Positions 2,914 through 21,512 of a DNA stretch of 64,000 bases are shown here, piece by piece. Source of the DNA: Terriglobia bacterium (GTDB lineage: Bacteria > Acidobacteriota > Terriglobia > Terriglobales > Acidobacteriaceae); contig JAIQFP010000001.1 of the NCBI GenBank assembly GCA_020073165.1, positions 186,001-250,000 on the forward strand. Reading direction: 5' to 3'. The notes beneath the pieces are model-generated. The model was not told where the DNA came from, made no database searches, and saw nothing but the letters and a program-made list of their open reading frames with translations. The position numbers and the translations under genes were made by a program. Position 1 is the first letter of the stretch; each line of letters begins with the position of its first letter.

Positions 2914-2942
2914 GGGGCGGCAGAAGCTGCCCCTTCTTTTTT
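2914..2942 (+). terminator. Rho-independent terminator after ahcY
   Basis: GGGGCGGC (2914-2921), loop AGAA, then GCTGCCCC (2926-2933) form an 8-bp stem with one G-T wobble, followed by TTCTTTTTT. It lies 28 nt after the ahcY stop and has the classic shape of an intrinsic terminator. Confidence 0.85.
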
Positions 2943-3076
2943 GCGGACTTTCCGTATCGGTAATCGGCCAGTTGGACCCGCCACACAACCGGCAGTCATT
3001 TACATTTCAATATGGTTATGGTCTGTTCGCCAGCCGGAATGCTCAGGGGAGCCAACGTGCGAGATTTGACAAAACA

Positions 3077-3106
3077 TTGACAACTGCCTGTATGTGACGT
3101 TGTAAA
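3077..3106 (+). promoter_or_regulatory. Putative sigma-70 promoter for the Ig-repeat gene
   Basis: A perfect -35 hexamer TTGACA (3077-3082) is separated by 18 nt from TGTAAA (3101-3106), about 35 nt upstream of the ATG at 3142. The -10 match is only moderate. Confidence 0.4.
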
Positions 3107-5738: not shown

Positions 5739-5925
5739 GAATTCTCTCCTTGTGCAGACGCAGGTCTGCGCGGTCGCATGATTGCCCAACTGTCTATTGG
5801 AGTCTGGGGATAGGCGGGGGGTCAGTGCGGTAGGTCACAGAGGCTGGTGAGCGGTGAAAGCGAGCATTCAGCCATTGGGCTTCCTCGGTGCCTCTGTGTC
5901 TCTGTGGTAGATTTGATTTTCTACC

Positions 5926-7392
5926 ATGAAGGACATCGCCGCCTGGGCCCTGAACGTCGCCGAACAGCAGGGCGCCTCCTACGCTGACGCCCGCCTCGCT
6001 GACGACCGCAGCCGCGCCCTCGCGACCAAGAACGGCAAGATCGGCGGTGCTTCAGACTCTGAGTCCCAGGGCATCGGCGTTCGCGTGATTGCCAATGGCG
6101 CGTGGGGATTTGCGGCCTCGGACGACCTCAGTAGGCAAGCGGTCGAAGCCACGGCGGCTCGCGCAGTGGATATCGCCAAAGCGTCGGCCCGCGTCAAGCA
6201 GCACGACGTCCAACTTGCGCCGGAGAAGGCCGTCACCGCAGAGTGGACTACGCCTTTCCAGATTGATCCCTTCACTACCTCCGTCGAACAGAATCTTGAT
6301 CTCCTACTAAAGATCGACTCGGAGCTACGCTCGGTCGCGGGCGTGACTCTTGCCGAAACCAACATGAACTTCCGGCGAGAGGAGTCGTGGTTCGTATCGT
6401 CCGAAGGCGCCAACATTCATCAGGCGAAGTACACCACGGGCGCGGGATACGCCGCGCATGCCTTTGCCGGAAGCGAGATCCAAAAGCGGTCGTATCCCAA
6501 CTCTTACGGCGGGCAGTGGCAGAACAAGGGCTATGAGCTGATTCACGAACTAAAGCTGGTGGAAAACGCGCGGCGGGTGGGCGAGGAAGCGGTGGCGCTG
6601 CTCAAGGCTGAGCGCTGTCCGGAAGGTGTGTTCGACATCATTCTGGATGGCTCACAGCTGGGCCTGCAGATTCACGAGTCGGTGGGGCATCCCATCGAAC
6701 TGGACCGCGTGCTGGGCATGGAAGCCAACTTCGCCGGAACGTCGTTTCTCACGCTCGACAAGTTACGCACGCTGCGTTATGGCAGCGAGCTGGTGAATAT
6801 TGTCGCCGACGCGCGGCAGGAGCATGGGCCGGGCCTGGGGACCTTTGCGTTCGACGAAGAAGGCGTTCCCGCGCAGTGCACGCCGATCATCACCAACGGT
6901 TTGTTCACCGGATATCTGAGCTCGCGGGAGACGGCGCATGCCATTGGAGCGAACCGCTCCGGCGGGACGCTGCGGGCCGAGGGCTGGAACCGGCTGCCGA
7001 TCATCCGTATGACCAACGTCAGCATTCTGCCCGGCGAAAAGCCCCTCACCCGCGAGCAGCTTATTGCTTCCACCGACCACGGTATTTACATGGAGACCAA
7101 CCGTTCGTGGTCCATTGACGACAAGCGCTACAACTTCCAGTTCGGCTGTGAGCTGGGATGGGAGATCAAAGGCGGCAAGCGCGTGCGCATGCTGAAGAAC
7201 CCGTCATATTCGGGGATTACGACCGAGTTTTGGAATTCGATGGATGCGATCTGCTCGCGGGATGAGTGGGTGCTGTGGGGCGTGCCCCACTGCGGCAAGG
7301 GGCAACCGCAGCAGGTGATGGGCACGGGGCATGGGGCGGCTCCGGCACGATTCAGAAATATCAAAGTAGGCTCGGCTTATAGCGGGAATTAG
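5926..7392 (+). CDS. tldD: TldD metalloprotease subunit
   Basis: Catalytic subunit of the TldD/TldE heterodimeric protease, which degrades unfolded peptides and matures some ribosomal peptides such as microcin B17. The zinc motif HESVGH (HExxxH) is at residues 250-255, followed by the conserved ELDRVLGMEANFAGTSF. The 488-residue length is normal. The partner tldE follows after 165 nt. Oddly, no Shine-Dalgarno sequence precedes the ATG; instead a perfect 6-bp inverted repeat GGTAGA/TCTACC (5906-5911 and 5920-5925) abuts the start codon. If real, it could restrict ribosome access. Confidence 0.93.
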   Translation: MKDIAAWALNVAEQQGASYADARLADDRSRALATKNGKIGGASDSESQGIGVRVIANGAWGFAASDDLSRQAVEATAARAVDIAKASARVKQHDVQLAPEKAVTAEWTTPFQIDPFTTSVEQNLDLLLKIDSELRSVAGVTLAETNMNFRREESWFVSSEGANIHQAKYTTGAGYAAHAFAGSEIQKRSYPNSYGGQWQNKGYELIHELKLVENARRVGEEAVALLKAERCPEGVFDIILDGSQLGLQIHESVGHPIELDRVLGMEANFAGTSFLTLDKLRTLRYGSELVNIVADARQEHGPGLGTFAFDEEGVPAQCTPIITNGLFTGYLSSRETAHAIGANRSGGTLRAEGWNRLPIIRMTNVSILPGEKPLTREQLIASTDHGIYMETNRSWSIDDKRYNFQFGCELGWEIKGGKRVRMLKNPSYSGITTEFWNSMDAICSRDEWVLWGVPHCGKGQPQQVMGTGHGAAPARFRNIKVGSAYSGN

Positions 7393-9383: not shown

Positions 9384-9514
9384 GATCTGTCTGTGACGGC
9401 AAACACAGCCTCTAAATTGCCCGTAATCGCATGAACCCCAAGCATTTAAGCCCTACTAGTTCAATGACTTCGGTAACTTTTCACTGCTGATTCCGGGGTG
9501 TAAGCTGCGGCGTA

Positions 9515-9952
9515 ATGTCGAACAACGGTCGATCTGCGGACAACGACAACCCGGGCACGCCTCTCGGAACTCGAAAAGACGCGGCTTCTTCGCTGTCGAA
9601 CCAACCGGCCACCGGGAAAGCGGGTGAAAGCAAAACCCGCCGTGGCCGCTATCCCGACATGCAGAGTGCGGTGCGCTTTCCCATTCACCTGCCGGTGTCG
9701 GTGAAATCGAAATCAGGCGAAAGTCGCGCAGAGACGCAGAACATTTCCGCTAACGGCGTGCTGTTCCAGGTGGACTCGGAGATGCCGGTGGGCTCGATGG
9801 TGGATTTCACCATCTCCTTGCCGGCGGAGGTGGTGGGGGCCGATGCCGACGTGCAGCTCGACTGTCGCGGCCGAGTGGTGCGCAATTCCGAAGCCGGCGG
9901 CCGTCGGGGCGTGGGGGTAGTGATCGACGAGTACCATTTTGAGCGCCGCTGA
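9515..9952 (+). CDS. PilZ-domain protein
   Basis: A 145-residue protein with about 50 disordered N-terminal residues and then a PilZ domain, the usual receptor for cyclic di-GMP. The second signature NISANG (NxSxxG) is intact, but the first, RxxxR, appears as RFPIH, so binding may be weakened or absent. It lies 17 nt upstream of the LuxR-type regulator at 9970, suggesting an operon in which second-messenger sensing and transcription control are linked. Target or partner cannot be inferred. Confidence 0.75.
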   Translation: MSNNGRSADNDNPGTPLGTRKDAASSLSNQPATGKAGESKTRRGRYPDMQSAVRFPIHLPVSVKSKSGESRAETQNISANGVLFQVDSEMPVGSMVDFTISLPAEVVGADADVQLDCRGRVVRNSEAGGRRGVGVVIDEYHFERR

Positions 9953-9969
9953 ACGCGGCGAGGAAACTG

Positions 9970-10803
9970 ATGGCTAGCATTCCGGTCAGCGTAGAGGAGA
10001 ACGTCGAGCAGCCACAACAGGGTGAAGGCAACGGCCATTTCATCCGGGTGATCGTGGCTGACACGCAAGCAATTTTCCGCGCCGGATTGCGCAAGATTTT
10101 TGCCCTGGAAGATGACATTCGGGTGGTCGGACAGGCGGAGACACTCTCCCAGACACTTTCTGCCGCCAAGAAGTTCTCCGCTGACATCCTGATCTTCGAA
10201 GCGGCGCTGACCACGAATCCGGCGGACGCAGTTTCCGATCTGCTGCGGCAATCGCCGGCTTTGAAGCTGGTGGTGGTGACGCCAGAGCCCAACGAGGAAC
10301 TCACTCTGGAACTGTTCCGGCGCGGCGCCCACGGCATCGTTTCGCGCGAAGTGGAGCCGGAGATGCTGGTGGAGTGCCTGCGCAAGGTATCGCAAGGCGA
10401 GCCCTGGCTCGACAGCCAGGGAATTCACTGGGTGCTGACCGCCTATCGCACGCAAGGCGGGCGCCCATCTTCACCTCGTACCAAGGTGCAGTTGACCCCG
10501 AAGGAGTCGCTGATCGTGTCGTGCGTGACCCAGGGCATGAAGAACAAGGAAATTGCCCTACGGGTCGGCACCACCGAACAAGTGGTGAAAAACTACTTGC
10601 GCAAGGTGTATGACAAGCTGGGGGTCGCCGACCGGCTGGAGTTGGCGCTCTTCTGCCTGCACAACCGGGTGCTGGACGCCGCCGTTAAGCCGCCCAATCC
10701 TCCGCAGACTTCGCCGGCCAACGGCCACGCACCGGCGGAAGCCGCCACGACCTCGCCCGCGGTTCCGGAACCCTCAGAAAAAGCTTCCGAACCAACCAAC
10801 TGA
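9970..10803 (+). CDS. LuxR/NarL-family regulator with pseudo-receiver domain
   Basis: A 277-residue DNA-binding regulator. An N-terminal receiver-like domain (about residues 22-145) is followed by a LuxR helix-turn-helix (LTPKESLIVSCVTQGMKNKE, ending KVYDKLGVADRLELALF) and a Pro/Ala-rich tail. The receiver is degenerate: the usual phospho-acceptor Asp is Glu (ILIFEAAL), the second acidic residue of the start motif is Thr (VADTQ), and the conserved Lys is Arg (VSREVEPE). It is therefore unlikely to be phosphorylated and may be constitutively active or controlled by a ligand or partner. It is probably co-transcribed with the PilZ gene 17 nt upstream. Confidence 0.82.
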   Translation: MASIPVSVEENVEQPQQGEGNGHFIRVIVADTQAIFRAGLRKIFALEDDIRVVGQAETLSQTLSAAKKFSADILIFEAALTTNPADAVSDLLRQSPALKLVVVTPEPNEELTLELFRRGAHGIVSREVEPEMLVECLRKVSQGEPWLDSQGIHWVLTAYRTQGGRPSSPRTKVQLTPKESLIVSCVTQGMKNKEIALRVGTTEQVVKNYLRKVYDKLGVADRLELALFCLHNRVLDAAVKPPNPPQTSPANGHAPAEAATTSPAVPEPSEKASEPTN

Positions 10804-10957: not shown

Positions 10958-11434
10958 GTGAAAGGCGATGCCAAAGTCATAGCCGTACTCAACCAGGTGC
11001 TGAAGGCGGAACTGACCGCAATCAACCAATATTTTCTGCACGCCGAAATGTGCGAGAACTGGGGCTACCACAAGCTGGCCAAGCACACTCGCGGGGAGTC
11101 CATCGAGGAGATGCAGCATGCCGAGAAGCTAATGGAACGCATTCTGCTGCTCGACGGCACTCCGAACATGAGCGACTACTTCAAGATCAACATTGGACCG
11201 AACGTGAAGGCGCAGCTGGAGAACGATCTGCAGGTGGAGTACGACGCGGTCAAGCGCCTGAACGCCGGCATCGAGACCTGCGTCAACGCGGGGGACAACG
11301 GTTCGCGTGACTTGCTGGAAGAGATCCTGACCGACGAGGAAGAACACATCGATTATCTCGAGGGGCAACTGCACGCCATCGCGGAGATGGGGATCGAGAA
11401 TTACCTGGCACAGCAGTTGGAAGAGAAAAAGTAG
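10958..11434 (+). CDS. bfr: Bacterioferritin
   Basis: Heme-containing iron-storage ferritin that oxidises Fe(II) and stores it as mineral in a 24-mer. The ferroxidase ligands are all in register: E18, E51, H54, E94, E127 and H130; the heme-ligand Met is at position 52. I chose GTG 10958 (AGAGAGG upstream) because it gives VKGDAKVI and the standard 158 residues; the frame opens 10 codons earlier in repeat sequence. It stands alone between the LuxR-type gene and tRNA-Ser. Its leader contains imperfect GAGTGCTGA repeats (about 10,915-10,945). Confidence 0.95.
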   Translation: MKGDAKVIAVLNQVLKAELTAINQYFLHAEMCENWGYHKLAKHTRGESIEEMQHAEKLMERILLLDGTPNMSDYFKINIGPNVKAQLENDLQVEYDAVKRLNAGIETCVNAGDNGSRDLLEEILTDEEEHIDYLEGQLHAIAEMGIENYLAQQLEEKK

Positions 11435-11518
11435 CGAGTTGCGAGTGCCGGGTTGCGAGTACCGAGTGGGAGTCCAACCCCTGGCTGCTCACTTCCCGCT
11501 ACTCACGACTCGCACCAC

Positions 11519-11608
11519 GGAGAGATGGCCGAGTGGCTGAAGGCGCACGCTTGGAAAGCGTGTTTACTCGAAAGGGTAACGTGGGTTCGAATCCCACTCT
11601 CTCCGCCA
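11519..11608 (+). tRNA. tRNA-Ser (anticodon GGA)
   Basis: Acceptor stem GGAGAGA (11519-11525) pairs perfectly with TCTCTCC (11598-11604), followed by the discriminator G and encoded CCA. The anticodon loop TTGGAAA (anticodon GGA, 11553-11555) is closed by CACGC/GCGTG, and a long variable arm identifies serine. The T-arm GGTTCGAATCC is canonical. Its 3' end is the attachment site of the integrated element that follows. Confidence 0.97.
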
Positions 11609-11616
11609 GTTTTTCA
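11586..11616. repeat. attL: tRNA-Ser 3' end
   Basis: A 31-bp core beginning TTCGAATCCCACTCTCTCC and ending CCAGTTTTTCA. It includes the last 23 nt of the tRNA and contains the integrase stop codon (TGA on the minus strand, 11614-11616). Confidence 0.85.
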
Positions 11617-12756
11617 ATCGGTTGATATGTGTTCCATGCCACCCCCCGTGCTGTTAACCGCCAATCGGGCCACTTTGCCACTCGCCACTGTCATTTCGTC
11701 GGTCACCACGTCCCCGTAAACGTTCATCGTGGTGCGGATGTCCGCATGGCGCATTAGCTTTTGCTGAACGGCCAATGAAGTGCCCCCGGCATCAAGCCAA
11801 GAGCGATACGTATGGCGTAGCGTGTGCGTGCCGAAAGCCCCGAGCCCGGCTGCTATAGCCACATCTCTAAACACGCGCCATGTACGTGGATAAGACCATG
11901 GCAGCCGCCCAAGTTGCACCGGCGAAGCGAAGATCCAGTCGGTGGGGTCGGCAAACTGCGTTACTGACTTCCATGCTTGCAACGTGGCTACGATCTCGGG
12001 GGCCAGTGGCAGCGCTTTCCGTGACCCCGCGGTCTTCACGTCCCCCACCCGTCCGGTCACTATGCCACGCTCAACGAGCAGCTTGCAGTTGAGCCAATCC
12101 ACATCAGACCATCTCAACGCCAGACACTCGCTGATGCGGAGTCCAAGTGAGACGCACAGCAACGCGACGGTGCCGAACGGCTCCCGCAGTCGGACAACGA
12201 ACTGCCGGAACTCTTCTACCGTCAAGCTACGCGGTTGTTTTGTTCGCTTGGATGCCCCCCGCACTGTGACAAGTTCCATGGGGTTGCGCCCCACGGGGAC
12301 AGATCCCGACCACATCGCAAAATCCCACAGCCGTCTCAATAGTGCCCGAATCTCCGCTTTACTCTTGGGTGCCAGTGTCAGAGATCCAAGCCATAGCTCT
12401 ACGGGACGGGCTTGCACATCGGTTATCAGACCAGCCCCCCAGCGTGGCAGAACGTACAGCCGTATCCAAACTTCATACGACCGGCGGGTGCTGTATCGGG
12501 TTGGCATTTTTTCAGCCCGGTAGCTATCTACGAGAAGAGCCACGGTTGGCAGACGAAGATTGGTTTTCATCTGCTGGGTGGCCGTCCGTAGCTCCCCCCG
12601 TAGAATTTGAGCGGCTTCCCACGCCGCGGTCTTGGTTTGATGGCGGCCAAGTGATCGACTCTTATGCTTGCCGTCTTCCCACCAAAAGAACTGCCAGATT
12701 TTGCTTCTACGATCTAGCGCGATACTGCCCGTGGTGCTTTTACTCTTCCGTCGCAT
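11614..12756 (-). CDS. int: Tyrosine recombinase (integrase)
   Basis: Site-specific recombinase that inserts and excises the element at tRNA-Ser. The 380-residue protein has an N-terminal arm-binding/SAM-like region and a C-terminal catalytic domain with the Arg of GLRISECLALRW, the HTLRHTY box (HxxR) and the terminal Tyr in MRHADIRTTMNVYG. ATG 12756 is preferred to the upstream 12789 because GGAGAG lies 4-9 nt upstream and the frame then overlaps xis by only 17 nt. It lies next to the tRNA, as is usual for tRNA-integrating islands. Its last codons and stop run into the attL core. Confidence 0.93.
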   Translation of the reverse strand: MRRKSKSTTGSIALDRRSKIWQFFWWEDGKHKSRSLGRHQTKTAAWEAAQILRGELRTATQQMKTNLRLPTVALLVDSYRAEKMPTRYSTRRSYEVWIRLYVLPRWGAGLITDVQARPVELWLGSLTLAPKSKAEIRALLRRLWDFAMWSGSVPVGRNPMELVTVRGASKRTKQPRSLTVEEFRQFVVRLREPFGTVALLCVSLGLRISECLALRWSDVDWLNCKLLVERGIVTGRVGDVKTAGSRKALPLAPEIVATLQAWKSVTQFADPTDWIFASPVQLGRLPWSYPRTWRVFRDVAIAAGLGAFGTHTLRHTYRSWLDAGGTSLAVQQKLMRHADIRTTMNVYGDVVTDEMTVASGKVARLAVNSTGGGMEHISTD

Positions 12757-12973
12757 TGAACTCTCCGTTCGTTGCAGCGGATGGCACACCCATAATAGCA
12801 GCGTCTAATTCACTGGCCAAGAATCTCCACGTGACTCTCTGACAGCCGGACAGCCGGTGGGCGGGGATGCGCCCGGTCTTGGCCCATTCCAGCACCGTGC
12901 GGTGCCCGACTTTCAGATACGCGGCAGTCTCTTTAGCCGTCATCCAATCGGTAGTATGTGGTTGGGCGCTCAT
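12740..12973 (-). CDS. xis: Excisionase-family helix-turn-helix protein
   Basis: A 77-residue DNA-binding protein of the MerR-like excisionase family: WMTAKETAAYLKVGHRTVLE followed by the wing WAKTGRIPAHRL. It probably directs the integrase towards excision or, like AlpA in satellites, regulates element genes. The start at 12973 overlaps the upstream stop as ATGA, and its end overlaps the integrase start. This tight coupling puts excision functions at the end of the element's transcript. Confidence 0.85.
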   Translation of the reverse strand: MSAQPHTTDWMTAKETAAYLKVGHRTVLEWAKTGRIPAHRLSGCQRVTWRFLASELDAAIMGVPSAATNGEFNATEE

Positions 12974-13494
12974 CTTTTCACCGGCGCTTGCTCCCGTGCC
13001 CACTGGTCCGCTGTGGTCTTCATGCGGATGTCATCTACAGCACGTCGAAGCAATGGAGCTACGGCGGGGTTGCTTACGATGAACGGCCGGGCAAACACGA
13101 GCGACTGCTTTTTCTCCCGGTCCCAAACGGCAACTACCAGTCCGATGGTGACGTATTTCTTATGAAAGTCGGCGGCTGCCATCAGTAACTCAAAATCTTT
13201 CTGATGGTCCGACGTGATTTGGTAAAATTTCCCACGTGGTTGGGCGAAGTCCGGGTCAGTTCCGATCATGTACACCGCGCCGTCTTCTGGGGGCAGCTTC
13301 TCTCGTTCCATGTGGCGGGACAACTTAGCCGCCAGTGTTGAGCCCATGGCGAAGTACTCCAGCACGCTACGGGCCAAATCGTTCTTTCGCTTGGGACCGG
13401 CCATGAGCGCCCAAGAGACAGCTTCGGCTTTACTCCGCTGCTTTCGCATTGCCGCTGCGCCCCGCACCGTCATTTGTTTTCGCGTCAGTGCCAT
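12970..13494 (-). CDS. Conserved element protein, paralogue A (unknown function)
   Basis: 174 residues, function unknown. It is clearly paralogous to the protein at 20573-21064 of the same element: both share GPKRKxDL, LEYFAxG, LPxEDGxVYxIxxDPD, IGLVVxxWDREK and VFARPFIVSNPAVA. The last block is encoded by a 32-bp stretch identical in the two genes (13061-13092 and 20637-20668), although the rest is diverged. No helix-turn-helix or catalytic motif is obvious. One copy is the first gene of the element and the other sits next to excisionase, so a regulatory or packaging role is possible but unproven. Confidence 0.7.
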   Translation of the reverse strand: MALTRKQMTVRGAAAMRKQRSKAEAVSWALMAGPKRKNDLARSVLEYFAMGSTLAAKLSRHMEREKLPPEDGAVYMIGTDPDFAQPRGKFYQITSDHQKDFELLMAAADFHKKYVTIGLVVAVWDREKKQSLVFARPFIVSNPAVAPLLRRAVDDIRMKTTADQWAREQAPVKR

Positions 13495-13497
13495 GGT

Positions 13498-13680
13498 CTA
13501 ACTCCCATCCACGTTGGGGAAGCACACTGCACACGGTGCGTGTATCACCGTCTTGCCGTCCCCGGCGTCCACTTCTGTCCGCTTCTTGAACTGCCCGTGC
13601 TGACAAAAAGTCTGCTGGGGTGGCTCGGCACCGGCTTGCAACCGGGCGATCTGTTGTTGGCGGGTCTCTCGGATCTTCAT
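13498..13680 (-). CDS. Small Cys/His protein of the element
   Basis: 60 residues, unrecognised. A basic, Gln-rich N-terminus is followed by FCQHGQF and APCAVCF, four potential zinc ligands in a C-x-H/C-x2-C arrangement. Its ATG overlaps the terS-1 stop as ATGA, and only 3 nt separate its stop from the next start, so it is translated as part of the same operon. Confidence 0.6.
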   Translation of the reverse strand: MKIRETRQQQIARLQAGAEPPQQTFCQHGQFKKRTEVDAGDGKTVIHAPCAVCFPNVDGS

Positions 13681-14156
13681 GTCTCTTCCCCGTCGGGTAT
13701 CACTTCATATGTATTCCCATCGGCGTCCGGGGGTGCGAGTACATCGTCCAACGTCCGCGTCCGCTCTTTGCGTTCGGTGGGATTGACTGGCCCGTTGCTC
13801 CGGGATCTTGGCGTCAGCCCAAGCTGCCACAGCACCCGTGCCAATTTTTCGTTCAATCGGGCGGTATCGTCTACGGCCGGGTGAAGCTTCTGGACCCCGG
13901 TCTTGCTGACGGTATAACGTCCATCCGCTTGAATGTGGCCCCACGCCGTGTCCAGATCGGCCATCAGCTTGGCGGCCATGGACACGATGGCCCGGTCTCC
14001 GGGAATCAGCACAACCCCCGAGCGCTCCATCTCGTCAATGAGCCGGTCCCAGTGGCCGGATGCCCCCGCGCTCAAGTTGCCGGGTTTGTCGGGTGCCCCC
14101 GGCGTCAGCGCGGGACTCTCCGGCCGCTCCAATTTAGACCCCAATTTTCGACTCAT
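13677..14156 (-). CDS. P27-family terminase small subunit, copy 1
   Basis: 159 residues. The pattern of a P27-type small terminase is visible: PGNLSAGASGHWDRLIDEME, a central DLDTAWGHI helix, then ARLNEKLARVLWQLGLTPRSR. Such proteins recognise phage DNA ends and recruit the large subunit for packaging. It is a diverged paralogue of 16990-17451. I chose ATG 14156 (GGGG upstream) because it aligns with the start of that paralogue. No large subunit is encoded nearby, which suggests redirection of a helper phage's packaging motor. A 386-nt repeat-rich non-coding region lies directly upstream. Confidence 0.72.
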   Translation of the reverse strand: MSRKLGSKLERPESPALTPGAPDKPGNLSAGASGHWDRLIDEMERSGVVLIPGDRAIVSMAAKLMADLDTAWGHIQADGRYTVSKTGVQKLHPAVDDTARLNEKLARVLWQLGLTPRSRSNGPVNPTERKERTRTLDDVLAPPDADGNTYEVIPDGEET

Positions 14157-14174
14157 AACAACCCCGTTTCCCAT

Positions 14175-14560
14175 CGGTTTCAGTGGCCGGATGCGCCATT
14201 TAACCCACCGGACTGTGTCAAAAATGACACACTAAAATGTTTTGTTCATGTAAAGTTACATACGACGGGCTCTTGTAAGTCATTCATTCTAGAGATTTTA
14301 ACCCCCCACCCCCACCCGTAAGTGAACGTGGTCTATCGTGTTGATTCCATTACACATCCACCCCCGTACTGTGGCGGCCCGGCTCCCCGGCTGCCCAAAC
14401 CACGTGTCTAATAGAATCAACAACATGTACACCGGAACGGCCACACCCCAAAGTGTTTTAACTTTTTTGGTTGACTCTCCATGGTTCTATCTCTCTAGAG
14501 AACTGTTGGGTGTGGCCGTACGGGTGTACCGGGAATCCCCAGCCCCCGGCCCGGCCATGC
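14175..14560. other. Non-coding region with nested inverted repeats
   Basis: This 386-nt gap is the only long gene-free stretch inside the element. It holds four dyads. TGTGTCA/TGACACA is at 14214-14231 (4-nt spacer). ATGTAA/TTACAT is at 14248-14261 (2-nt spacer). GTTGATTCCATTA (14340-14352) faces TAATAGAATCAAC (14409-14421) with one mismatch. A 24-nt arm at 14427-14450 faces one at 14506-14529 with three mismatches. The two proximal dyads could be operators for the terS-1/xis/int transcript. The distal pair could be a replication origin, a packaging (cos/pac) site or a structured RNA. None of these roles can be decided from sequence alone. Confidence 0.6.
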
Positions 14561-14758
14561 TCATGACCCGCCACCCGCGGTATTCTCCCGATCCCGCTTC
14601 TCCCGATCCATCTTCGCCCGGAGTCTGGCTTGGCTCCGACAGAACTTACCGCAGTAGCCGTCTCTACGTTCGCCCGGCCCGCGAATGATTAGCTCACCAC
14701 AACGTAAGCACATCTCCACATCCGGCTTATCCCCGCGTGTGGGTGTGATGGTCTTCAT
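14561..14758 (-). CDS. Small zinc-ribbon protein
   Basis: 65 residues with a likely zinc site CLRCGEL and CGKFC (CxxC and CxxxC, 15 residues apart), followed by a basic, highly charged helix. Small proteins like this are common in phage genomes next to HNH and terminase genes; the role is unknown. ATG 14758 overlaps the stop of the upstream gene as ATGA. It is the last gene before the non-coding region. Confidence 0.6.
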   Translation of the reverse strand: MKTITPTRGDKPDVEMCLRCGELIIRGPGERRDGYCGKFCRSQARLRAKMDREKRDRENTAGGGS

Positions 14759-15393
14759 GGTGTCTTGTCCCCCAGCTTCTCCCGCCACTCCGGGTCCAGA
14801 TAGATCCCGCACTTCCACAACTCACCGCCCACGGGGATGAGCACGTACCCCCGGCCACTCCCCCCCGATGTGTCCATCGTCACCGTCACATCTGGTTTAC
14901 CCGTTTCATCCATTGCCACGTCTCGCTGGTCTACAACCACTTGGATTTTAACTTTTGGGTCTTTACGCGTTGTGAACGCATCATGCGCTCGGATGGCCGT
15001 CAGCGTTCGCTCTTCGGGGTTGGCCATGACGATCACCACGGGCACGTTGAAAAACTTCTCGACCAGCCGGTACGTATGCAACGCTCCGGCGTCAATCAAC
15101 CCCGTGTCCGCATACATGGGGTCGTGCCACTTCACATCCACCAGCGAGACCACATGCTCCCGGTGATTGGCCAGAATGAAGTCCGGCACCCAGCGTAAAC
15201 GGTTGGCCCGTCCAGTGTGGTCTTTGAACTGGCCCAGCTCTTTCACAATTGCCGGTAAAAACAGTGATGGGTTGTTTAGATTCTGAACGGTGTGAACGCC
15301 CGGTTGCCCGTGCTCCCGCACCACCCGCTCAAAGAACGCTTCCGCTTCTTTGCCGGATTTTTCCCGCCCGGCGTAATCATCGTGATTGCTCAT
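14755..15393 (-). CDS. Candidate PD-(D/E)XK nuclease
   Basis: 212 residues, not assigned to a named family by me. A PD-(D/E)XK-like active site can be read: a helix with Glu (GKEAEAFFERVV), then WVPDFIL and, 12 residues later, VDVKWHDP, giving PD-xn-DxK. The following DAGALHTY and FFNVPVVIVMANPEE resemble the core strands of such folds. I infer a DNA endonuclease or Holliday-junction-resolvase-like enzyme serving element replication, packaging or interference. Start 15393 has GGAG 6 nt upstream; ATG 15405, which directly follows the preceding stop, is the alternative. Confidence 0.55.
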   Translation of the reverse strand: MSNHDDYAGREKSGKEAEAFFERVVREHGQPGVHTVQNLNNPSLFLPAIVKELGQFKDHTGRANRLRWVPDFILANHREHVVSLVDVKWHDPMYADTGLIDAGALHTYRLVEKFFNVPVVIVMANPEERTLTAIRAHDAFTTRKDPKVKIQVVVDQRDVAMDETGKPDVTVTMDTSGGSGRGYVLIPVGGELWKCGIYLDPEWREKLGDKTP

Positions 15394-15405
15394 CAACGTC
15401 TCCAT

Positions 15406-15834
15406 TCAATTCCACGTCCGAATCTCACCATACGGAACGAAAAACTGTGGCGGCCCCCCCGTTGGACAGCGGCCATCGTCTTCATGTTCGTCATAAGTGG
15501 CCCCACACTCGCAAACGTCAGTGGGCTTGAACGTCCGCACCGTTTTGTCCGGTTGCAATATCCATTCGTCTCCCACCCGTGCGTAGAAGCCCGCTGGACC
15601 ATTGAAACTCACGGGAATGCCCGCACGGTCTTGGCTCAAGCGCATCACGGCCCAACCACCGGCCCCGCCGTCACCGGCACCGCCGTTCAATCCCGCGCAC
15701 TCGGAGCAAGCAGCACTTTTCACCAGTCCCGACTGAATCTTACCGTCAACCACTTGGTCCCCGATCAAGAGCACGTCGGGGCGCTGGCCAGCGTACACGT
15801 GACTGCACACGATAATTAAGCGGTTGCGGTCCAT
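15406..15834 (-). CDS. Hypothetical element protein with Cys clusters
   Basis: 142 residues, unrecognised. The middle holds CSECAGLNGGAGDGGAGG and the C-terminal part CECGATYDEHEDDGRC, both possible metal-binding knuckles. Its ATG lies 1 nt after the stop of the preceding small gene, so it belongs to the same translationally coupled chain. Confidence 0.55.
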   Translation of the reverse strand: MDRNRLIIVCSHVYAGQRPDVLLIGDQVVDGKIQSGLVKSAACSECAGLNGGAGDGGAGGWAVMRLSQDRAGIPVSFNGPAGFYARVGDEWILQPDKTVRTFKPTDVCECGATYDEHEDDGRCPTGGPPQFFVPYGEIRTWN

Positions 15835-15835
15835 T

Positions 15836-16045
15836 TCAGTTCACCGTCCGGCCGGTCTCATCCCCGTTCAAGCAGTACGTACACAAGACGCCACACATCC
15901 CAATGCCATGGAGCGCCAACGCCGTCGCGTCCCGCTTGAAGCCCGTCTCTGCCATGCCCATTCGCACCAGCACCCAAGTGATCGCGTTGATCTCCAGATC
16001 GGAGAAGCCCAGCGATTCCAATCGGGCTTGATAATCTTCGTGCAT
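15836..16045 (-). CDS. Hypothetical small element protein
   Basis: 69 residues, unrecognised, mostly helical, with a C-terminal MCGVLCTYC cluster. Its ATG immediately follows the HNH stop (TGAATG), which supports expression even though no family can be named. Confidence 0.5.
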   Translation of the reverse strand: MHEDYQARLESLGFSDLEINAITWVLVRMGMAETGFKRDATALALHGIGMCGVLCTYCLNGDETGRTVN

Positions 16046-16492
16046 TCAGAAACTCCACTTCTTCGCCGGCCGCCCCAACTCTACCCACGGCCCGCCGTTG
16101 GCAATATGCTTATCGTCTTCGATAGTTTTCAACCGATGGCACCCGGCGCACAGCGATTGCAGATTGCCCATGTCAAAGAACGCATTCTCGGGTATCAAGT
16201 TCTTTCCCCGGCGCATCTCTATGTATATCGCGGCCGGTATGTAATGGTCCGCAATCTCTGCCAGTTTCCCGCACCCCGTCTCGCACATCGGGAATCGCTG
16301 CTTCTGAAGCAGAGCAACGGTCGTCCAGCGTTTCGACTGGTATAAGTGCGCGTGCTTGTCCCGTGATGGCGTCGCCCCAACCGGCGCGTGCGATTTAATC
16401 CCATCATCCGCCACTGGCACACCCCGGCACTCGTCGCACTTACCCCGGTGAGAGTCCGGTAGTTTTGTCCCGCATCCCGAGCAAAGTCGCAT
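16046..16492 (-). CDS. HNH endonuclease
   Basis: 148 residues. An N-terminal zinc ribbon (CSGCGTKL with CDEC) is followed by the HNH core: a first His in ADHYIPA, then NLQSLCAGCHRLKT with the CxxC zinc knuckle and last His. HNH proteins beside small terminases cut or resolve DNA during packaging in cos-type phages, so this gene fits the satellite reading of the element. Start 16492 follows the previous stop by 3 nt. Confidence 0.85.
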   Translation of the reverse strand: MRLCSGCGTKLPDSHRGKCDECRGVPVADDGIKSHAPVGATPSRDKHAHLYQSKRWTTVALLQKQRFPMCETGCGKLAEIADHYIPAAIYIEMRRGKNLIPENAFFDMGNLQSLCAGCHRLKTIEDDKHIANGGPWVELGRPAKKWSF

Positions 16493-16495
16493 GAT

Positions 16496-16993
16496 TCAGT
16501 TCACCGTCCCCGAGTCCGAAGCCCCCCGGAGCATGGTCGCCCGGCGCACGATGTCATCCAAGTCCAACGTTGCAGCAATTCGCCGGACTTCATCGTAATG
16601 CGCTTTCAATGACGATATGGCGTCCGGCTGGTGGCCCGTTGGCTCACCCACCAGCGTCCACCAGATAAATTCCAGTCCCCAAGCCAGACACCGCACATCG
16701 TTGGCCCCGGTTGCTGCCATCTCTGCCACAGCACCCCGAAGCAACCCCGTAAAATTCGCCGTCTTGACTTTCTCCCGGCCGTGTTCCGTAATCGCCAACC
16801 CGCCGGGCTCCGGCACTTCCACCACGGAGCACACAAGATTCTCCGGCAGTCGAAACCACTTCCCAGCATCGGCGGCTAACTCTGCGGTCTCAAAATGTGT
16901 GGCGTCCGCGATGGTGTCCACTAGCTTGGCCCCACGATCAGCCGTGAACGTCATGTATTGCTTCCGGCACTCAATCACGTAAGTCATAGTCAT
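16496..16993 (-). CDS. Hypothetical element protein
   Basis: 165 residues, unrecognised. The frame opens far upstream inside terS-2, so I use ATG 16993, which overlaps the terS-2 stop as ATGA; ATG 16987 is also possible. The protein begins MTMTYVIECRKQYMTFTADR and has no clear catalytic motif. It lies between the second small terminase and HNH, so a role in packaging or DNA metabolism is a guess from position only. Confidence 0.5.
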   Translation of the reverse strand: MTMTYVIECRKQYMTFTADRGAKLVDTIADATHFETAELAADAGKWFRLPENLVCSVVEVPEPGGLAITEHGREKVKTANFTGLLRGAVAEMAATGANDVRCLAWGLEFIWWTLVGEPTGHQPDAISSLKAHYDEVRRIAATLDLDDIVRRATMLRGASDSGTVN

Positions 16994-17451
16994 TCCCCAT
17001 CTTCCGCGGACATCCGTTCTGCGGAGCCCGGTGACCCGTCGCCATCCAAAATGTCTTCCAACGACGGCTGCCCACCGTCCGGTTTTTCTGTGCCATGACG
17101 TTGCTGGGCTCGGGGTGTCAAGCCGAGCTGCCACAGCGCACGGGATAGCTTTTCGTTTAGCTTGGCCGTGTGCTCCACCGCTGGCGACATCTTCTCCACA
17201 CCCGTCCGGCTGACCGTGTAATAACCGTGTTCTTTGATGTGAGCCCACGCCATTGCCAGATCGGCCATGAGCGTGGCGGCTTGCGTAAGTGATGCACGAT
17301 ACGCTGGGATCAACGGGATTCCCGAGCGGGTCATCTCATCCACCAAACGGTCCCATTCCAACGAAGCCCGCGGAGACAATCCGCCCGGTTTCTCCGGTAC
17401 ACCGGGTATCAGATCCCCCCCGGCTGGTTGGCCGCCGCTTTTCTTGGACAT
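16990..17451 (-). CDS. P27-family terminase small subunit, copy 2
   Basis: 153 residues, paralogue of copy 1 at 13677-14156. Shared blocks include PEKPGGLSPRASLEWDRLVD, DLAMAWAHIKEHGYYTVSRT, then KLNEKLSRALWQLGLTPR. GGAG precedes ATG 17451. It heads a coupled chain of seven genes down to 14561 and is preceded by a perfect 26-bp palindrome at 17509-17534. Two such subunits in one element could recognise two different helper packaging sites, or one may act as an inhibitor. Confidence 0.72.
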   Translation of the reverse strand: MSKKSGGQPAGGDLIPGVPEKPGGLSPRASLEWDRLVDEMTRSGIPLIPAYRASLTQAATLMADLAMAWAHIKEHGYYTVSRTGVEKMSPAVEHTAKLNEKLSRALWQLGLTPRAQQRHGTEKPDGGQPSLEDILDGDGSPGSAERMSAEDGE

Positions 17452-17508
17452 AAATCACTCCGTTTCTCGCCGGTATGTGCCCGGCTGGCAATTCGCCCCG
17501 CGTACCCC

Positions 17509-17534
17509 GCCGTCCTCGCACGTGCGAGGACGGC
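17509..17534. repeat. Perfect 26-bp palindrome in the element
   Basis: Positions 17509-17521 are the exact reverse complement of 17522-17534. It lies in the 88-nt gap between the stop of the hypothetical gene at 17540 and the terS-2 start. No U-tract follows on the minus strand, so it is not a typical intrinsic terminator; an operator or RNA hairpin is possible. Confidence 0.7.
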
Positions 17535-17539
17535 CGGGA

Positions 17540-17971
17540 TCATATGGTCTTCTGCAATTCACGAAACGCAAGCGCCCGTGGGCTCACTGTCCGTCCGGGC
17601 TTGTCATATCGTCGCAACTGATTCGGATTTTTCGCAGCTCTTTTGCTCGCAGCTAACTTACGACTGGTTTCCATGGACGTGTGGGGGACAAGCAACCGGA
17701 CTTTCGGTGCCAACCAAACATCGGTTGAATCAAACATCTTGACGGCTTTACGTCCCACCCGGTCAATCGCGTAACGGACGAGCTTCTTACCCACTTTTCG
17801 CCACAAGACCGTGGCGGACACGTAAGTTTTCCAGCCCCACTGGTTCCGTGCGGCCGTGGCCAAGACACAGTGACCGCAATCCCCGCGCTTAGCTTGCTTG
17901 ACATCTTGGGGTGTGATCCGCAGTGTCTTGGGTCTGCGAGTGTCGTTTCTGTCGTAATTAGCGAATGCCAT
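17540..17971 (-). CDS. Hypothetical basic element protein
   Basis: 143 residues, very basic, unrecognised. It contains GDCGHCVLATAARNQWGWKT and ends in a Lys/Arg-rich stretch (RKLAASKRAAKNPNQLRRYD) that could bind nucleic acid. I prefer ATG 17971 (GGAG 9 nt upstream); 17986 is an alternative. It follows the primase gene by 43 nt. Confidence 0.5.
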   Translation of the reverse strand: MAFANYDRNDTRRPKTLRITPQDVKQAKRGDCGHCVLATAARNQWGWKTYVSATVLWRKVGKKLVRYAIDRVGRKAVKMFDSTDVWLAPKVRLLVPHTSMETSRKLAASKRAAKNPNQLRRYDKPGRTVSPRALAFRELQKTI

Positions 17972-18014
17972 ACTGCTGTACTCCATTTCTCGCCCGGCAA
18001 GCCCCGAACGTGGC

Positions 18015-20576
18015 TTAGTTCCGATCTCTCAGCTTGACGCCCACCCATCCCCGTTTTCGCAGTCCCGCGATCTTCACATTGGTAGACTCGGTGCATTTGC
18101 GCTCCCGGAGATTGGCGGCCAACTTGACCATGCTAAAAACCACCGGGACGCCGGTCTCTTTCAAAAACCATTCGCACGCACTGATTAAGTTCTCGCTCGA
18201 CTCAGTAAGTTCCGGGCCAAACTCCAGTCTTTCATCGCAAAAACGGGCGTGTAGATCACTCTCTCGGAACATCTGAGCCCCGGCTTGCTGAATCACGGAT
18301 GGGACCAGCATCTTTTGATTCCCCGCCGCAAACTCCCGCCCCGCCATAAGCCACTTATGCAAAATGCCGGGGGCTTCAAGTTGCATCAGCTCTTCGATCA
18401 TGGTGGGACGCTGACGGAGAATGTCGGGAGCGTGCTTGCAATCCATAGACTCTTGCAGACATCCCGGAAAACTTAGTTCATTGAACACCGCCCGGAATGG
18501 AAAGAGACGCACCCGCCCCACCATGGCCGGATCGGGTTCAATTCTTGGTGAGAAATTACTTAGCGTTGGCATCTTGAAACGGATGGGGCCGGACACTTCG
18601 GATCGGTATAGATCGGCCCCGATAAGTTCCCCGCCACCAGTCAAGTTTTTTACCATGGACGTTTCTAATCGTCTGGTGCCGGTCTCTTCGCCGGACTCTT
18701 CCACAAATGCGACTCGGGCGCGTAGCAGCTTGAAGCAAAGCCGCTTAAAAGTGTTATCCCCGCCGCGGTCATCCCGGACCAGTTCGGAGAAACGTACCGT
18801 GACACAGAAGTCCGACAAGATGAACTGCATCAGCCGGGCCAGCCCGGATTTTCCATTTCGGCCGGAACCCGTCCAAAGCGGCCATACATGATCGGTGAAA
18901 ATTCCCAACGTGCAGTACCCGATCAGCGAAGTCATGGACGCGATCCAATCTTGATCGGGCGGTTGGCCGTTGGCGCTACTGATGGACCGTATGAAGTAAT
19001 CCCACACCGGCGTCGGCATGGTGGGATCGGGGCGGAATCGTAGACGCCGCGTGATAAAGTCAGCGCGTAGCATCTGCCGCTCTTGCCCCGTGCGAAAATC
19101 GAAGACATATCCACCGGGCAGCCCGATGAGAAATCCGTCCCCGTCCAACTGTTCAAATCGGGCGTGATCCCGCATGAAACCGATTTGGGCCGCTGTATCT
19201 CTTCGGAAGCTGTGTGAATCCAGTATCCGGCGATAGTCCCGCTCCGGGTCATCCGGCTCCGGCATGTCCCAACGCAAGCGGTCAAAGATCGGTTGCAACG
19301 CTTTCATCAGCAATATCTCAGAGTCTTCGATGACCCATCGGGTGCCCACAAACACCGCGCCGATGGACTTCTTATCGGTGATAACCCGCATGTGGTTGGC
19401 AAACTCGGGGCAGTGATCGCGGAAGTAATTGCCCACGGCGGCATTGGTGGAGTCTTCGGGCAGCTTGGGAAGAGCTCTGGAGAATGGCGGCTTCCCCGAT
19501 CTATTCAATTTAGCTTTTAGCTTGGGCCAGTCCCGTGACTCCGCGGCACATTCGCGGTGGAAACAATGAAATCCATAACCGAATTTCCGCACGTACCAAA
19601 CCGATGTGGAAGACTCTCCGCTCCGGCTGCCATGTTCGTTTTCCCATGGGCACCCGATGTCAAAGAGCAGCTTGCCGCCGGAGTGCCGCGTGTTGAGAAT
19701 GGGCACGTCATAGTAGTTGAGAAAAGACCGCAGCCATTCATACTTGCGGTTGGCATCGGAGTCCAGCTCCACATCCGCGGGGCCGCCGGTCATCTTCTGC
19801 GGGACGGGCAACTGCGCTACGGTGCTTTCAATCAACGCTTGCGGGACCGGCTCCAGATCGGGGACCAGCAACGGTGACTGATTCATCTGTGGGATTTCCC
19901 GCTCCGGAATCTCCAATATCTCAGACTGCCGCTGGGGACGTTCTGGGGTGTGCTTGTCTTTCCGATTCCATGTGCCATAGAGACGGCAGAGCGCATTGGC
20001 GGGAAACATCCCCGCGTCTACGTGACACTGTTCATTGTCAAACCGGGCCGCCAGTCCCGCGAGTAGCCGCTTAATCAAGTCTTCGGATGCCGGATCGTTG
20101 AGTAATTCGATGGCAAACAACAAATGATGCCCGTTGCCCGATACGGACAAAAGCGGACGGGGCCAATGGTGCCCATCCACTAAGAAGTCCCAGATCTCTT
20201 CCGCCATCTTCTTTCCGGGTGCAAATTGCTCCGCGGTGGCGTTAGTGCCAGATGGCCGCTGGGGATCGCAGTCAATCAGAATCCAGACCCGGCGGCTCAT
20301 CCAATCTTTTTGCGAGCGGTTGCCCCGTTTAAATTGCTCGGGGTTGAGCGAGAAGCCCGTGGGAAGCTCTTTCAGTGGGTTGAGCGAGAAATATCCCGCG
20401 CGGTAAGTGGTGTCATGTTCAAAGCGGGACAACGCCAAGTCCAGATCATCGAAGTACCCCATCTCTAGCTTGCCATCGGCCCGGACTTTCACCACTTCGT
20501 GTATCCCACGGGCAAGCAGAATGGTACGGCGGTGCGCGTCGCGTGCTCTATGATCGCTCATCGCGCCGTCACTCAT
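18015..20576 (-). CDS. Primase-helicase (prim-pol plus D5-like SF3 helicase)
   Basis: 853 residues and the element's replication protein. The N-terminal third resembles an archaeo-eukaryotic-type primase: an acidic strand VWILIDCDPQRP near residue 100 and SGNGHHLLFAI near 147. A CHC2-like zinc site (CPWENEH ... FHCFHREC) lies near 309-340. The C-terminal half is a D5/SF3 helicase with Walker A WTGSGRNGKS near 568, an acidic Walker-B-like ARVAFVEESGEE and the sensor Asn in PTLSNFSPRI. Start 20576 overlaps the upstream stop as ATGA. It would initiate autonomous replication after excision, as in PICIs. Confidence 0.85.
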   Translation of the reverse strand: MSDGAMSDHRARDAHRRTILLARGIHEVVKVRADGKLEMGYFDDLDLALSRFEHDTTYRAGYFSLNPLKELPTGFSLNPEQFKRGNRSQKDWMSRRVWILIDCDPQRPSGTNATAEQFAPGKKMAEEIWDFLVDGHHWPRPLLSVSGNGHHLLFAIELLNDPASEDLIKRLLAGLAARFDNEQCHVDAGMFPANALCRLYGTWNRKDKHTPERPQRQSEILEIPEREIPQMNQSPLLVPDLEPVPQALIESTVAQLPVPQKMTGGPADVELDSDANRKYEWLRSFLNYYDVPILNTRHSGGKLLFDIGCPWENEHGSRSGESSTSVWYVRKFGYGFHCFHRECAAESRDWPKLKAKLNRSGKPPFSRALPKLPEDSTNAAVGNYFRDHCPEFANHMRVITDKKSIGAVFVGTRWVIEDSEILLMKALQPIFDRLRWDMPEPDDPERDYRRILDSHSFRRDTAAQIGFMRDHARFEQLDGDGFLIGLPGGYVFDFRTGQERQMLRADFITRRLRFRPDPTMPTPVWDYFIRSISSANGQPPDQDWIASMTSLIGYCTLGIFTDHVWPLWTGSGRNGKSGLARLMQFILSDFCVTVRFSELVRDDRGGDNTFKRLCFKLLRARVAFVEESGEETGTRRLETSMVKNLTGGGELIGADLYRSEVSGPIRFKMPTLSNFSPRIEPDPAMVGRVRLFPFRAVFNELSFPGCLQESMDCKHAPDILRQRPTMIEELMQLEAPGILHKWLMAGREFAAGNQKMLVPSVIQQAGAQMFRESDLHARFCDERLEFGPELTESSENLISACEWFLKETGVPVVFSMVKLAANLRERKCTESTNVKIAGLRKRGWVGVKLRDRN

Positions 20577-21064
20577 TGTGCCACTTCCACCGTGCCCCAT
20601 AAGACGTGCTTTAGCGCATGATCCAGCAGACGGGCAACGGCGGGGTTGCTTACGATGAACGGCCGGGCGAAAACTAAGCGCTGGGTTTTCTCGCGGTCCC
20701 ATATAGATACCACCAGCCCAATGATGGCGTATCCCCGCTGGTGAAACGTCACAGCGGCTTCTAGCTCTTCCGCGCCGTTGGCCGGGTACTTGAACTTGTG
20801 AAACTCCCCGTGGGGCTTGGCGCGATCCGGGTCATTGGCAATGATGTACACGTCGCCGTCTTCCACCGGCAGTCCGGCCCGAGTTAGACGCAACGGCAGA
20901 TCGTTGGCCAGCGCCCGTCCCCGTGCGAAGTATTCCAGCGTGGTTAGCTGCAAGTCTTTTTTGCGCTTGGGTCCGCCGCTCAATGTCCATGCTAAGAACT
21001 CCGCGACAGAGCGGTTTTTAATGCTCTGCCGGTTGCCCCGCTTCGCCATGGTATTCACGTCCAT
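20573..21064 (-). CDS. Conserved element protein, paralogue B (unknown function)
   Basis: 163 residues, first gene of the element's main transcript and paralogue of 12970-13494. It shares GPKRKKDLQ, LEYFARGRALANDL, LPVEDGDVYIIANDPD and LVFARPFIVSNPAVARLL. Function is unknown. ATG 21064 lies 50 nt downstream of the -10 box of the strong promoter at 21114-21143. Its position directly under that promoter suggests an early regulatory or host/helper-interaction role. Confidence 0.65.
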   Translation of the reverse strand: MDVNTMAKRGNRQSIKNRSVAEFLAWTLSGGPKRKKDLQLTTLEYFARGRALANDLPLRLTRAGLPVEDGDVYIIANDPDRAKPHGEFHKFKYPANGAEELEAAVTFHQRGYAIIGLVVSIWDREKTQRLVFARPFIVSNPAVARLLDHALKHVLWGTVEVAQ

Positions 21065-21094
21065 AAAGCCCCGTCTCTCGCTCCCAAAGCCATT

Positions 21095-21143
21095 ACAATT
21101 TTCGACACAGCTAATTGTACAATGGCCATGGGAGCCGTGTCAA
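21095..21143 (-). promoter_or_regulatory. Element leftward promoter with overlapping dyad
   Basis: On the minus strand TTGACA (21138-21143) and TACAAT (21114-21119) are separated by 18 nt, a strong sigma-70 promoter. An inverted repeat ACAATT (21095-21100) / AATTGT (21113-21118) overlaps the -10 box and could be a repressor site. No repressor gene is recognisable in the element. Confidence 0.65.
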
Positions 21144-21257
21144 TGTGATTATTCGGCGTGCTGATTCCGTGCTATTGGTGGGGTATTCAGTGGAACTAAC
21201 CGCTTAAAGATGCCATCCGCCGCGGCTTAAAATGTGTGATCTAGTGGTGGGAGCGTT

Positions 21258-21287
21258 TTCGAATCCCACTCTCCCGCCAGTTTTTCA
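21258..21287. repeat. attR: partial duplicate of tRNA-Ser 3' end
   Basis: A 30-bp copy of attL, TTCGAATCCCACTCTC then CCGCCAGTTTTTCA, one nucleotide shorter in the CT run. It marks the distal end of the integrated element; only the 3' end of the tRNA is present, so it is not a second tRNA gene. The 225 nt from here to 21512 hold no gene that I can support. Confidence 0.85.
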
Positions 21288-21512
21288 GCACTTGCAGACC
21301 ACGAAATCGTCTGATTATCGGCAGCGGTAGGATGTGGATTTCCATCTTGGAGATTCAAGCATTTGGCGGGGGAGACGGTTTTGGTGAGGTCAATGCGAGT
21401 TTACTTCCAGGGCCAAACACTCCCGCGTGTAGTTATTCACCACTTCTTAGCACCCGGATCGGAGAGATGAACGCTGAACAATACAATTGGGTAGTCTTGG
21501 GGATTGGCGGGT

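Follow-up and report, generated by a model that had tools for sequence, protein, structure and literature searches.

Two genes of a Terriglobia bacterium (Acidobacteriota; Acidobacteriaceae) share a block of identical DNA amid diverged sequence, which raises the question of what keeps the block identical, what the genes do and what kind of element carries them. The genes, here named X1 and X2, lie in a stretch of 64,000 nucleotides (assembly GCA_020073165.1, contig JAIQFP010000001.1, positions 186,001 to 250,000) that we refer to as the window. A preliminary description had proposed that they are paralogues bracketing an element and that they share 32 identical bp between diverged flanks. The paralogy is borne out by a pairwise protein alignment (49% identity; E 1.7e-40 for X1 against X2), the 32-bp identity by direct comparison, and the divergence of the flanks by the second-longest identical nucleotide run of the two genes, which is 10. 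The bracketing is accurate at one end: counting inward from the distal attachment (att) repeat, X2 comes first, but at the other end the excisionase-like gene xis and the integrase gene int (11614-12973) stand outside X1. The pair is carried by a satellite-like island of 9.67 kb that occupies a tRNA-Ser gene, and X is very probably a hallmark gene of satellites; both points go beyond what the preliminary description recognized.

Gene family X and its satellite context

The size of the island is given by the spacing of its att repeats, 9,672 bp. It carries a tyrosine integrase homologous to that of another X-bearing satellite, L024 (2.1e-114), together with a primase/helicase and two terminase small subunits, TerS1 and TerS2 (Table 1). 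Capsid, tape-measure, large terminase subunit (TerL) and portal genes were not found in it with profiles drawn from related phages and satellites only. The TerS pair is related to the TerS of two related phages (7.5e-26 and 3.6e-19), which links the island to the lineage of these phages and so to a helper lineage. No helper was seen in the bacterium's own genome (G000) by searches for major capsid protein (MCP), tape measure protein (TMP) and TerL, which are weak negatives. The only DNA that the island has in common with sister satellites and phages is a single 18-bp match (E 0.044).

X1 and X2 belong to one family, diverged from each other long ago, and are the only X genes of their genome. 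Searched with the pair, X was found in nine of 398 genomes of the bacterial family, the own genome included; one of the nine, G938, was dropped (E 0.004, three internal stops). A search of the order with nine X sequences returned 22 of 397 genomes (own included), every one of them in the bacterial family of the window genome. Two further X genes, L123 and L127, were found beside tape-measure matches in the same bacterial family and bring the total to 24 loci with the window. The taxa of seven X-bearing records were Acidobacteriaceae, Terriglobus or Terracidiphilus in six and Acidobacteria only in one. With queries of one or two sequences, which make for weak negatives, X was found beyond its own pair in none of the viral contigs, genome contigs and phage records, and in the own genome alone among 100 relatives (1/100) and 396 genomes of the phylum (1/396). 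One weak plasmid match (E 0.8) was dismissed.

Neither X1, X2 nor the nine-sequence alignment matched Pfam or NCBIfam at the thresholds used. PHROGs gave noise only (best E 0.026), the X profile met a chance-level match in PDB sequences (E 0.91), and X1 and X2 had no match in PADLOC. Structure prediction, which the preliminary description had suggested as a check, yielded an AlphaFold model of X1 from nine sequences (predicted local distance difference test score, pLDDT, 80.1; predicted template modelling score 0.75), for which the best Foldseek values (E 0.1 in PDB, 0.021 in BFVD) and the best VIA match (Z 4.7) were unusable. The model of the neighbouring protein Y (pLDDT 83.5) has a strand-helix order resembling the C-terminal part of X, and RNase-PH-like exosome chains are among the low-scoring matches of both models (Z 4.7 for X and 5.1 for Y). 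No relation between X and Y was found by hhalign, and that the two might share an origin is only a thought prompted by the models.

The neighbourhoods of X are informative. With profiles built here, an MCP gene was found in 15 of the 24 loci, Y in 14 and a tape-measure gene in 12. X lies upstream of the MCP gene in all 15, mostly in the order X-Y-capsid-(tape measure), and 13 of the 14 loci with Y beside X also have the capsid gene. Of the nine loci in which no MCP was found, the contig stops close to X in four (L025, L026, L078, L084). The remaining five are the window, L028, L077, L085 and L086; in L086, X and Y are accompanied by a tape measure truncated at the end of the contig. MCP without a TMP was found beside X in L076, L079, L081 and L083. 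A survey with phage profiles covered 22 of the X loci (L025 and L026 lay outside it) and found TerL or portal in 0/22, a protease in 1/22 (L080, Pfam Peptidase_S49) and MCP in 15/22. The MCP is identified by Pfam Phage_capsid (5.1e-45, L024) and by the PHROG major head protein (L024, L022). The tape measure is identified by phrog_1538 (6e-8, L027), the others being assigned by homology (38-51% identity to L024); the L024 and L022 proteins had no PHROG tape-measure match and that of L121 no Pfam one. The sampled X genes belong to small integrative elements or to remnants, stand at the end of a contig or, in one case, have no visible context.

A comparison with related phages places X on the satellite side. 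L041 has the order TerL-portal-protease-MCP-adaptor-neck-TMP, with the same MCP and tape-measure types as the satellites, and is an ordinary phage. X occurs in none of 12 loci with TerL, portal, adaptor or neck genes, several of which are fragments (L041, L043-L047, L049, L050, L052, L130, L132, L134), and in none of 10 whole viral records; the fragments prove little. Of 13 viral loci obtained, nine were used as phage loci, and L040, L042, L048 and L051 were left unclassed. Two phage records, of 42,887 and 39,554 bp, are probably complete because their ends carry terminal repeats (127 bp exact, and 43 bp with one mismatch), and both lack X. Given this distribution, we are confident in regarding X as a satellite hallmark gene.

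Element size, virion genes and a possible role for X

Where a span between tRNA-anchored repeats could be measured, size separates elements with X from those without. X-bearing elements measure 9,008-10,284 bp in 14 of 15 cases (window 9,672; L022 9,851; L023 9,940; L024 9,781; L027 9,865; L034/L087 9,373; L075 9,232; L076 9,720; L080 9,871; L081 9,209; L082 9,927; L083 10,284; L123 10,020; L127 9,008). Tape-measure satellites lacking X measure 13,411-20,128 bp in six of six (L120 13,411; L118 15,647; G958 18,589; G386 18,740; G677 19,725; G656 20,128). In two measured elements X and MCP do not go together: the window element has X but not MCP and spans 9.67 kb, and L118 has MCP but not X and spans 15.65 kb. 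The size follows X in both. Two candidate spans were not counted as sizes: an 18-bp repeat 12,759 bp apart in L125, and a match of only 12 bp, 10,688 bp apart, in L074, which is the same element as L033.

The two virion genes have different histories in our trees, from which proteins shorter than 200 aa were dropped and into which L128, L129 and L131-L133 were not entered. In the MCP tree (27 rows) the X-bearing satellites require 5 label changes; shuffled labels require 9.2 on average, and 1 of 500 shuffles was as low. In the TMP tree (29 rows) they require 10, against a mean of 9.4, with 399 of 500 as low, and their tape measures are interleaved with those of phages and other satellites. At least three label changes are forced in the MCP tree, so the pattern is one of clustering and not of a single origin. 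Caution is called for by long branches (L082, L125, L044 and L134 in the MCP tree; L075, L130 and L134 in the TMP tree) and by long branches that meet. Our reading of the trees is that the capsid gene may be specialised in satellites and the tape measure exchanged with helpers.

CpmAB and Sid of P4 are size switches of other satellites. A further switch, Rcm, described as lacking sequence relatives (PMC12409344), is a precedent for X. By analogy, we tentatively suggest that X is a virion-size factor, a suggestion that we hold with somewhat less than even confidence. X would serve virion assembly at the interface with the helper and would bind the element to a small, roughly 10-kb particle, acting like the unrelated Rcm, CpmAB and Sid on the satellite's own capsid protein; in the window element it would act on the capsid protein of the helper. 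The two diverged X and two diverged TerS genes of the window could represent two helper-specific hijacking sets. The sister satellites would supply both virion halves, through a satellite-specialised MCP and a tape measure swapped with helpers. The best overall explanation that we can offer, a satellite with X as a virion-assembly size factor and the 32-bp block as a conversion tract, is possible and falls a little short of an even chance. Its fullest form is speculative and rather unlikely to hold in every part: that hitherto undescribed satellites of about 10 kb in the Acidobacteriaceae rebuild both virion halves, that X sets their size, and that the window element is a capsid-less relative with two X-TerS sets.

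Several observations weigh against the explanation with X as a size factor. The X model, at pLDDT 80, is without a convincing structural relative, and the nine-sequence X profile covered genomes within the order only. The window element itself has X without MCP. L125, whose size is uncertain, carries MCP, Y and a tape measure but not X, and L085 bears X with only 4,136 bp between its repeats, although it is probably a remnant. No tRNA-anchored repeat, and hence no size, was found for 9 of the 24 X loci. Five of the six measured X-lacking satellites also lack MCP, so that X and MCP are nearly confounded, and the size correlation is uncorrected for common descent and based on six X-lacking elements. 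In addition, the overlap of X2 with the start of primase and of X1 with that of xis may be a sign of regulation instead.

Three other accounts of X have to be weighed against a size factor. It may be that packaging of concatemers in full-size helper capsids sets the 10-kb length, capsid size playing no part, and that X works elsewhere, for example in packaging or replication. The satellite sizes of 9.0-10.3, 13.4 and 18.6-20.1 kb lie near one quarter, one third and one half of a 39-43 kb helper, the range of the two phage records with terminal repeats (39,554 and 42,887 bp), and 8-copy concatemers packaged in full-size particles are reported for the PICMI satellites (PMC10803314). However, the 15.6 kb of L118 correspond to no simple fraction, and this account leaves unexplained both the separate clustering of the MCP and the fact that most X-bearing satellites have a capsid gene of their own; we regard it as unlikely, if the strongest of the three.

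A role for X in DNA transactions, as a regulator or partner that controls replication and excision, is a little less probable still. It would suit the ATGA overlaps of both X stops with the starts of primase (X2) and xis (X1), and the basic N-terminal stretch that many X members show, by eye, in an alignment of 21 sequences. However, X has no match among DNA-binding families, and in 14 of the 24 loci its neighbour is Y, 13 times with capsid, instead of primase or xis. It seems improbable that X inhibits the assembly of helper virions or serves in defence. As an orphan satellite protein adjoining MCP and TMP, X could have a role like that of Rta of PLE11, which blocks the helper tape measure while the element uses its own (PMC12987554); the capsid and tape-measure copies encoded by the satellite would then be immune to X. 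Yet X1 and X2 drew nothing from PADLOC, X stands beside MCP with no TMP found in L076, L079, L081 and L083, and the window has neither.

The identical block and the anatomy of the element

The preliminary description had offered gene conversion, strong protein constraint or a DNA-level site as causes of the identity. Protein constraint alone is rejected because of a codon test. Inside the block 10 of 11 codons match at identical residues having more than one codon. Outside it 28 of 66 do, and since 23.8 are expected from the codon usage of the element, the synonymous sites there are at background. Independent drawing of codons produced an identical run of at least 32 in none of 20,000 simulations, and permuting the observed codon pairs amino acid by amino acid did so in 0.3% of 20,000. 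The block is enclosed in a stretch of 15 identical residues, at whose edges the codons have already diverged. The control pair TerS1/TerS2 of the same element has a longest identical run of 13 and a common codon at 35 of 82 identical residues. The block exceeds both chance and protein constraint.

A constraint or site common to the family is rejected in turn because residues and codons differ at this place in all seven X homologues compared, and the block is local to the window element. A scan of viral contigs for the exact 32-mer gave no match. A deletion derivative joined at the block, as envisaged in the preliminary description, was not found, and neither was any closer relative of the element that could show one.

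Of the causes offered, conversion fits best: X1 and X2 have probably undergone gene conversion recently over a short tract, the block, which would then not be a conserved functional site. The block contains CCCGGCCGT and CCCCGCCGT, 22 bp apart, which are two copies of the 9-mer CCCSGCCGT. We prefer conversion since it calls for no additional component and explains why the spacer between the 9-mers is identical too. The 9-mer is at the centre of the live rival, an element-specific DNA site kept by selection, in which direct pairs of CCCSGCCGT upstream of xis and of primase, and the palindrome of the same 9-mer upstream of TerS2, would be bound by a satellite regulator. We consider such a site unlikely, although the enrichment of the motif in the element suits it better than conversion. 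Nine of the 12 copies in the window lie in the element and 3 in the remaining 54 kb, and each of 15 related satellites has 0 or 1 (one copy in 3/15). Genes of the element hold 7 copies against a mean of 1.1 under synonymous shuffling, a number that 0 of 2,000 shuffles reach. From the end of each of the three pairs to the start codon downstream, the distance is 87 nt for xis, 60 for primase and 53 for TerS2. The motif was chosen after the block had been seen, however, so these figures are flattering; with the duplicated block counted once the synonymous-shuffle P is 0.0045 before any correction for that choice. Three copies are single and inside genes, the phage pieces compared also hold 0 to 2 copies each without a known role, and no promoter-like site was reported between the pairs and the starts. 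A conversion tract remains our preferred explanation of the block.

The remaining features of the element are listed in Table 1. All recognized genes are on the minus strand, and ATGA overlaps join the X2 stop to the primase ATG (20576) and the X1 stop to the xis ATG. The inverted repeat upstream of TerS1 is a candidate origin or packaging signal. Six promoter-like sites were found in the region, against a shuffled mean of 4.5. No RNA element other than the tRNA was found in 11400-21400, and with respect to an AlpA or Stl master regulator only the HTH_17/Xis-like gene turned up in the element.

Table 1. Features of the window element and its integration site, in window positions
Feature	Position	Strand	Evidence or remark
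tRNA-Ser (GGA), integration site	11519..11608	+	ARAGORN; Rfam RF00005
att repeat at tRNA	11586..11616		TTCGAATCCCACTCTC, one extra base, CCGCCAGTTTTTCA
Tyrosine integrase (int)	11614..12789	-	Pfam PF00589 1.8e-20
Excisionase-like helix-turn-helix gene (xis)	12740..12973	-	PF12728, phrog_66/2907, on longer open reading frame (ORF) 12740-13003
X1, probable satellite-hallmark protein, 174 aa	12970..13494	-	Paralogy, family alignment, AlphaFold model
32-bp identical block, copy 1	13061..13092		
TerS1, terminase small subunit	13677..14174	-	PF05119 2.1e-11, phrog_83
Inverted repeat, 28-nt arms, 86% complementary	14427..14529		In ~360-bp gap without recognized gene, upstream of TerS1
Uncharacterised ORF	14755..15405	-	PD-(D/E)XK nuclease guess by eye; no database match
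HNH endonuclease	16046..16492	-	phrog_144 1.9e-13
TerS2, paralogue of TerS1 (55% identical)	16990..17451	-	PF05119 4.6e-12
Near-perfect 34-bp palindrome	17505..17538		From CCCCGCCGT + CCCGGCCGT; 53 nt upstream of TerS2
Primase/helicase (D5_N)	18015..20576	-	PF08706 1.7e-8, phrog_1156 4.7e-33, both on longer ORF 18015-20702
X2, probable satellite-hallmark protein, 163 aa	20573..21064	-	Paralogy, family alignment
32-bp identical block, copy 2	20637..20668		
Sigma-70-like promoter upstream of X2	21114..21143	-	TTGACA-18-TACAAT, 11 of 12
Distal att repeat	21258..21287		TTCGAATCCCACTCTC again and second 14-bp stretch after one-base difference

Some further observations concern the sister elements. 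In L028 a lone X (9467-10000) apparently lies, by eye, between a signal peptidase gene and carA, away from detected satellite genes. The 9.8-kb satellite L024 carries at 5735-6430 an Abi_alpha abortive-infection gene (PF14337, 1e-23) with a PADLOC PDC-S47 match (1.9e-9). A similar stretch of about 105-195 bp is found near one end of L022 (about 2932-3097) and in L150 (13808-13932) and L154 (7519-7646); among the first 69 of 740 pairs it likewise appears in L023, L024, L082, L087, L120 and phage pieces. L120, L121/L138, L122, L124/L140 and L126/L142 are tRNA-integrated elements of 13-20 kb with a tape measure in which no capsid gene was found. L037/L118 is a 15.6-kb tRNA-Val element of Granulicella aggregans with protease, MCP and tape measure and no X. 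Within the 13-20 kb group without a capsid gene, G386 and G958 each have an exceptionally long ORF, of 1,616 and 1,736 aa, which may be cargo.

Relation to known satellites

Phage-inducible chromosomal islands (PICIs) have an AlpA or Stl master regulator with divergent transcription. The window element resembles a PICI in its integrase at a tRNA att site, its primase and TerS, its size of about 10 kb, and in that no large terminase, portal or capsid genes were found with the profiles from related phages and satellites. It differs in having two TerS with an HNH gene and two X, in that no AlpA or Stl match was seen, and in its host, a member of the Acidobacteriaceae. The capsid-forming PICIs (cfPICIs) have a full capsid-forming set of MCP, portal, protease and connectors. 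In contrast, the phage-profile survey of the X loci gave portal and TerL in none of 22 and a protease in one, and the window element has none of the set. Some cfPICIs carry putative tmp genes, according to a figure legend in PMC12987554, and the combination of own capsid and own tape measure as such probably has precedents in them.

The PICMI satellites resemble the window element in their small size and in a small gene of no known function that overlaps a gene for DNA transactions by ATGA, int in their case (PMC10803314). Unlike the window element, whose site is tRNA-Ser, PICMIs integrate next to fis, and they are reported to have no capsid-remodelling genes (PMC10803314). Their core is made up of int, alpA and prim.

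Our searches of the literature found no paper on satellites of Acidobacteriota (full text, acidobacteri with phage satellite), and, among the papers listed, none that by its title or the start of its abstract describes satellites with their own capsid protein and their own tape measure. A paper on acidobacterial viruses mentions neither satellites nor tape measure in its main text (PMC11924767). A 2026 paper presents the Vibrio PLEs as the first satellites known to make chimeric tails by means of their own tape measure, and says that for no other satellites had one been reported, while giving putative cases elsewhere (PMC12987554).

The sister satellites of the window element are best compared with two systems. 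SaPIbov5 encodes Ccm, a homologue of a capsid protein (PMC8569155), and 15 of the 24 X loci likewise have a homologue of the phage MCP. They differ from SaPIbov5 in that they often add a tape measure and in that they carry X and Y, two genes without a known counterpart. The window element differs in having no capsid homologue, and its own genome has no MCP match. The PLEs of Vibrio cholerae encode a tape measure together with a tail assembly chaperone. They place this tape measure in chimeric tails (PMC12987554), and a tape-measure gene of their own is present in 12 of the 24 X loci, with none found in the window element. Unlike in PLEs, the tape measure of the X loci often occurs together with an MCP of the satellite's own and is intermixed with phage copies in the tree, and the gene order of the related phages is that given above for L041. 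The sister satellites combine the capsid homologue of SaPIbov5 with the own tape measure of PLEs, and they hold both genes within about 10 kb. The clustered MCP against the mixed TMP tree, and the split of element size by X, lead to predictions about which gene would set capsid size and which would track the helper.

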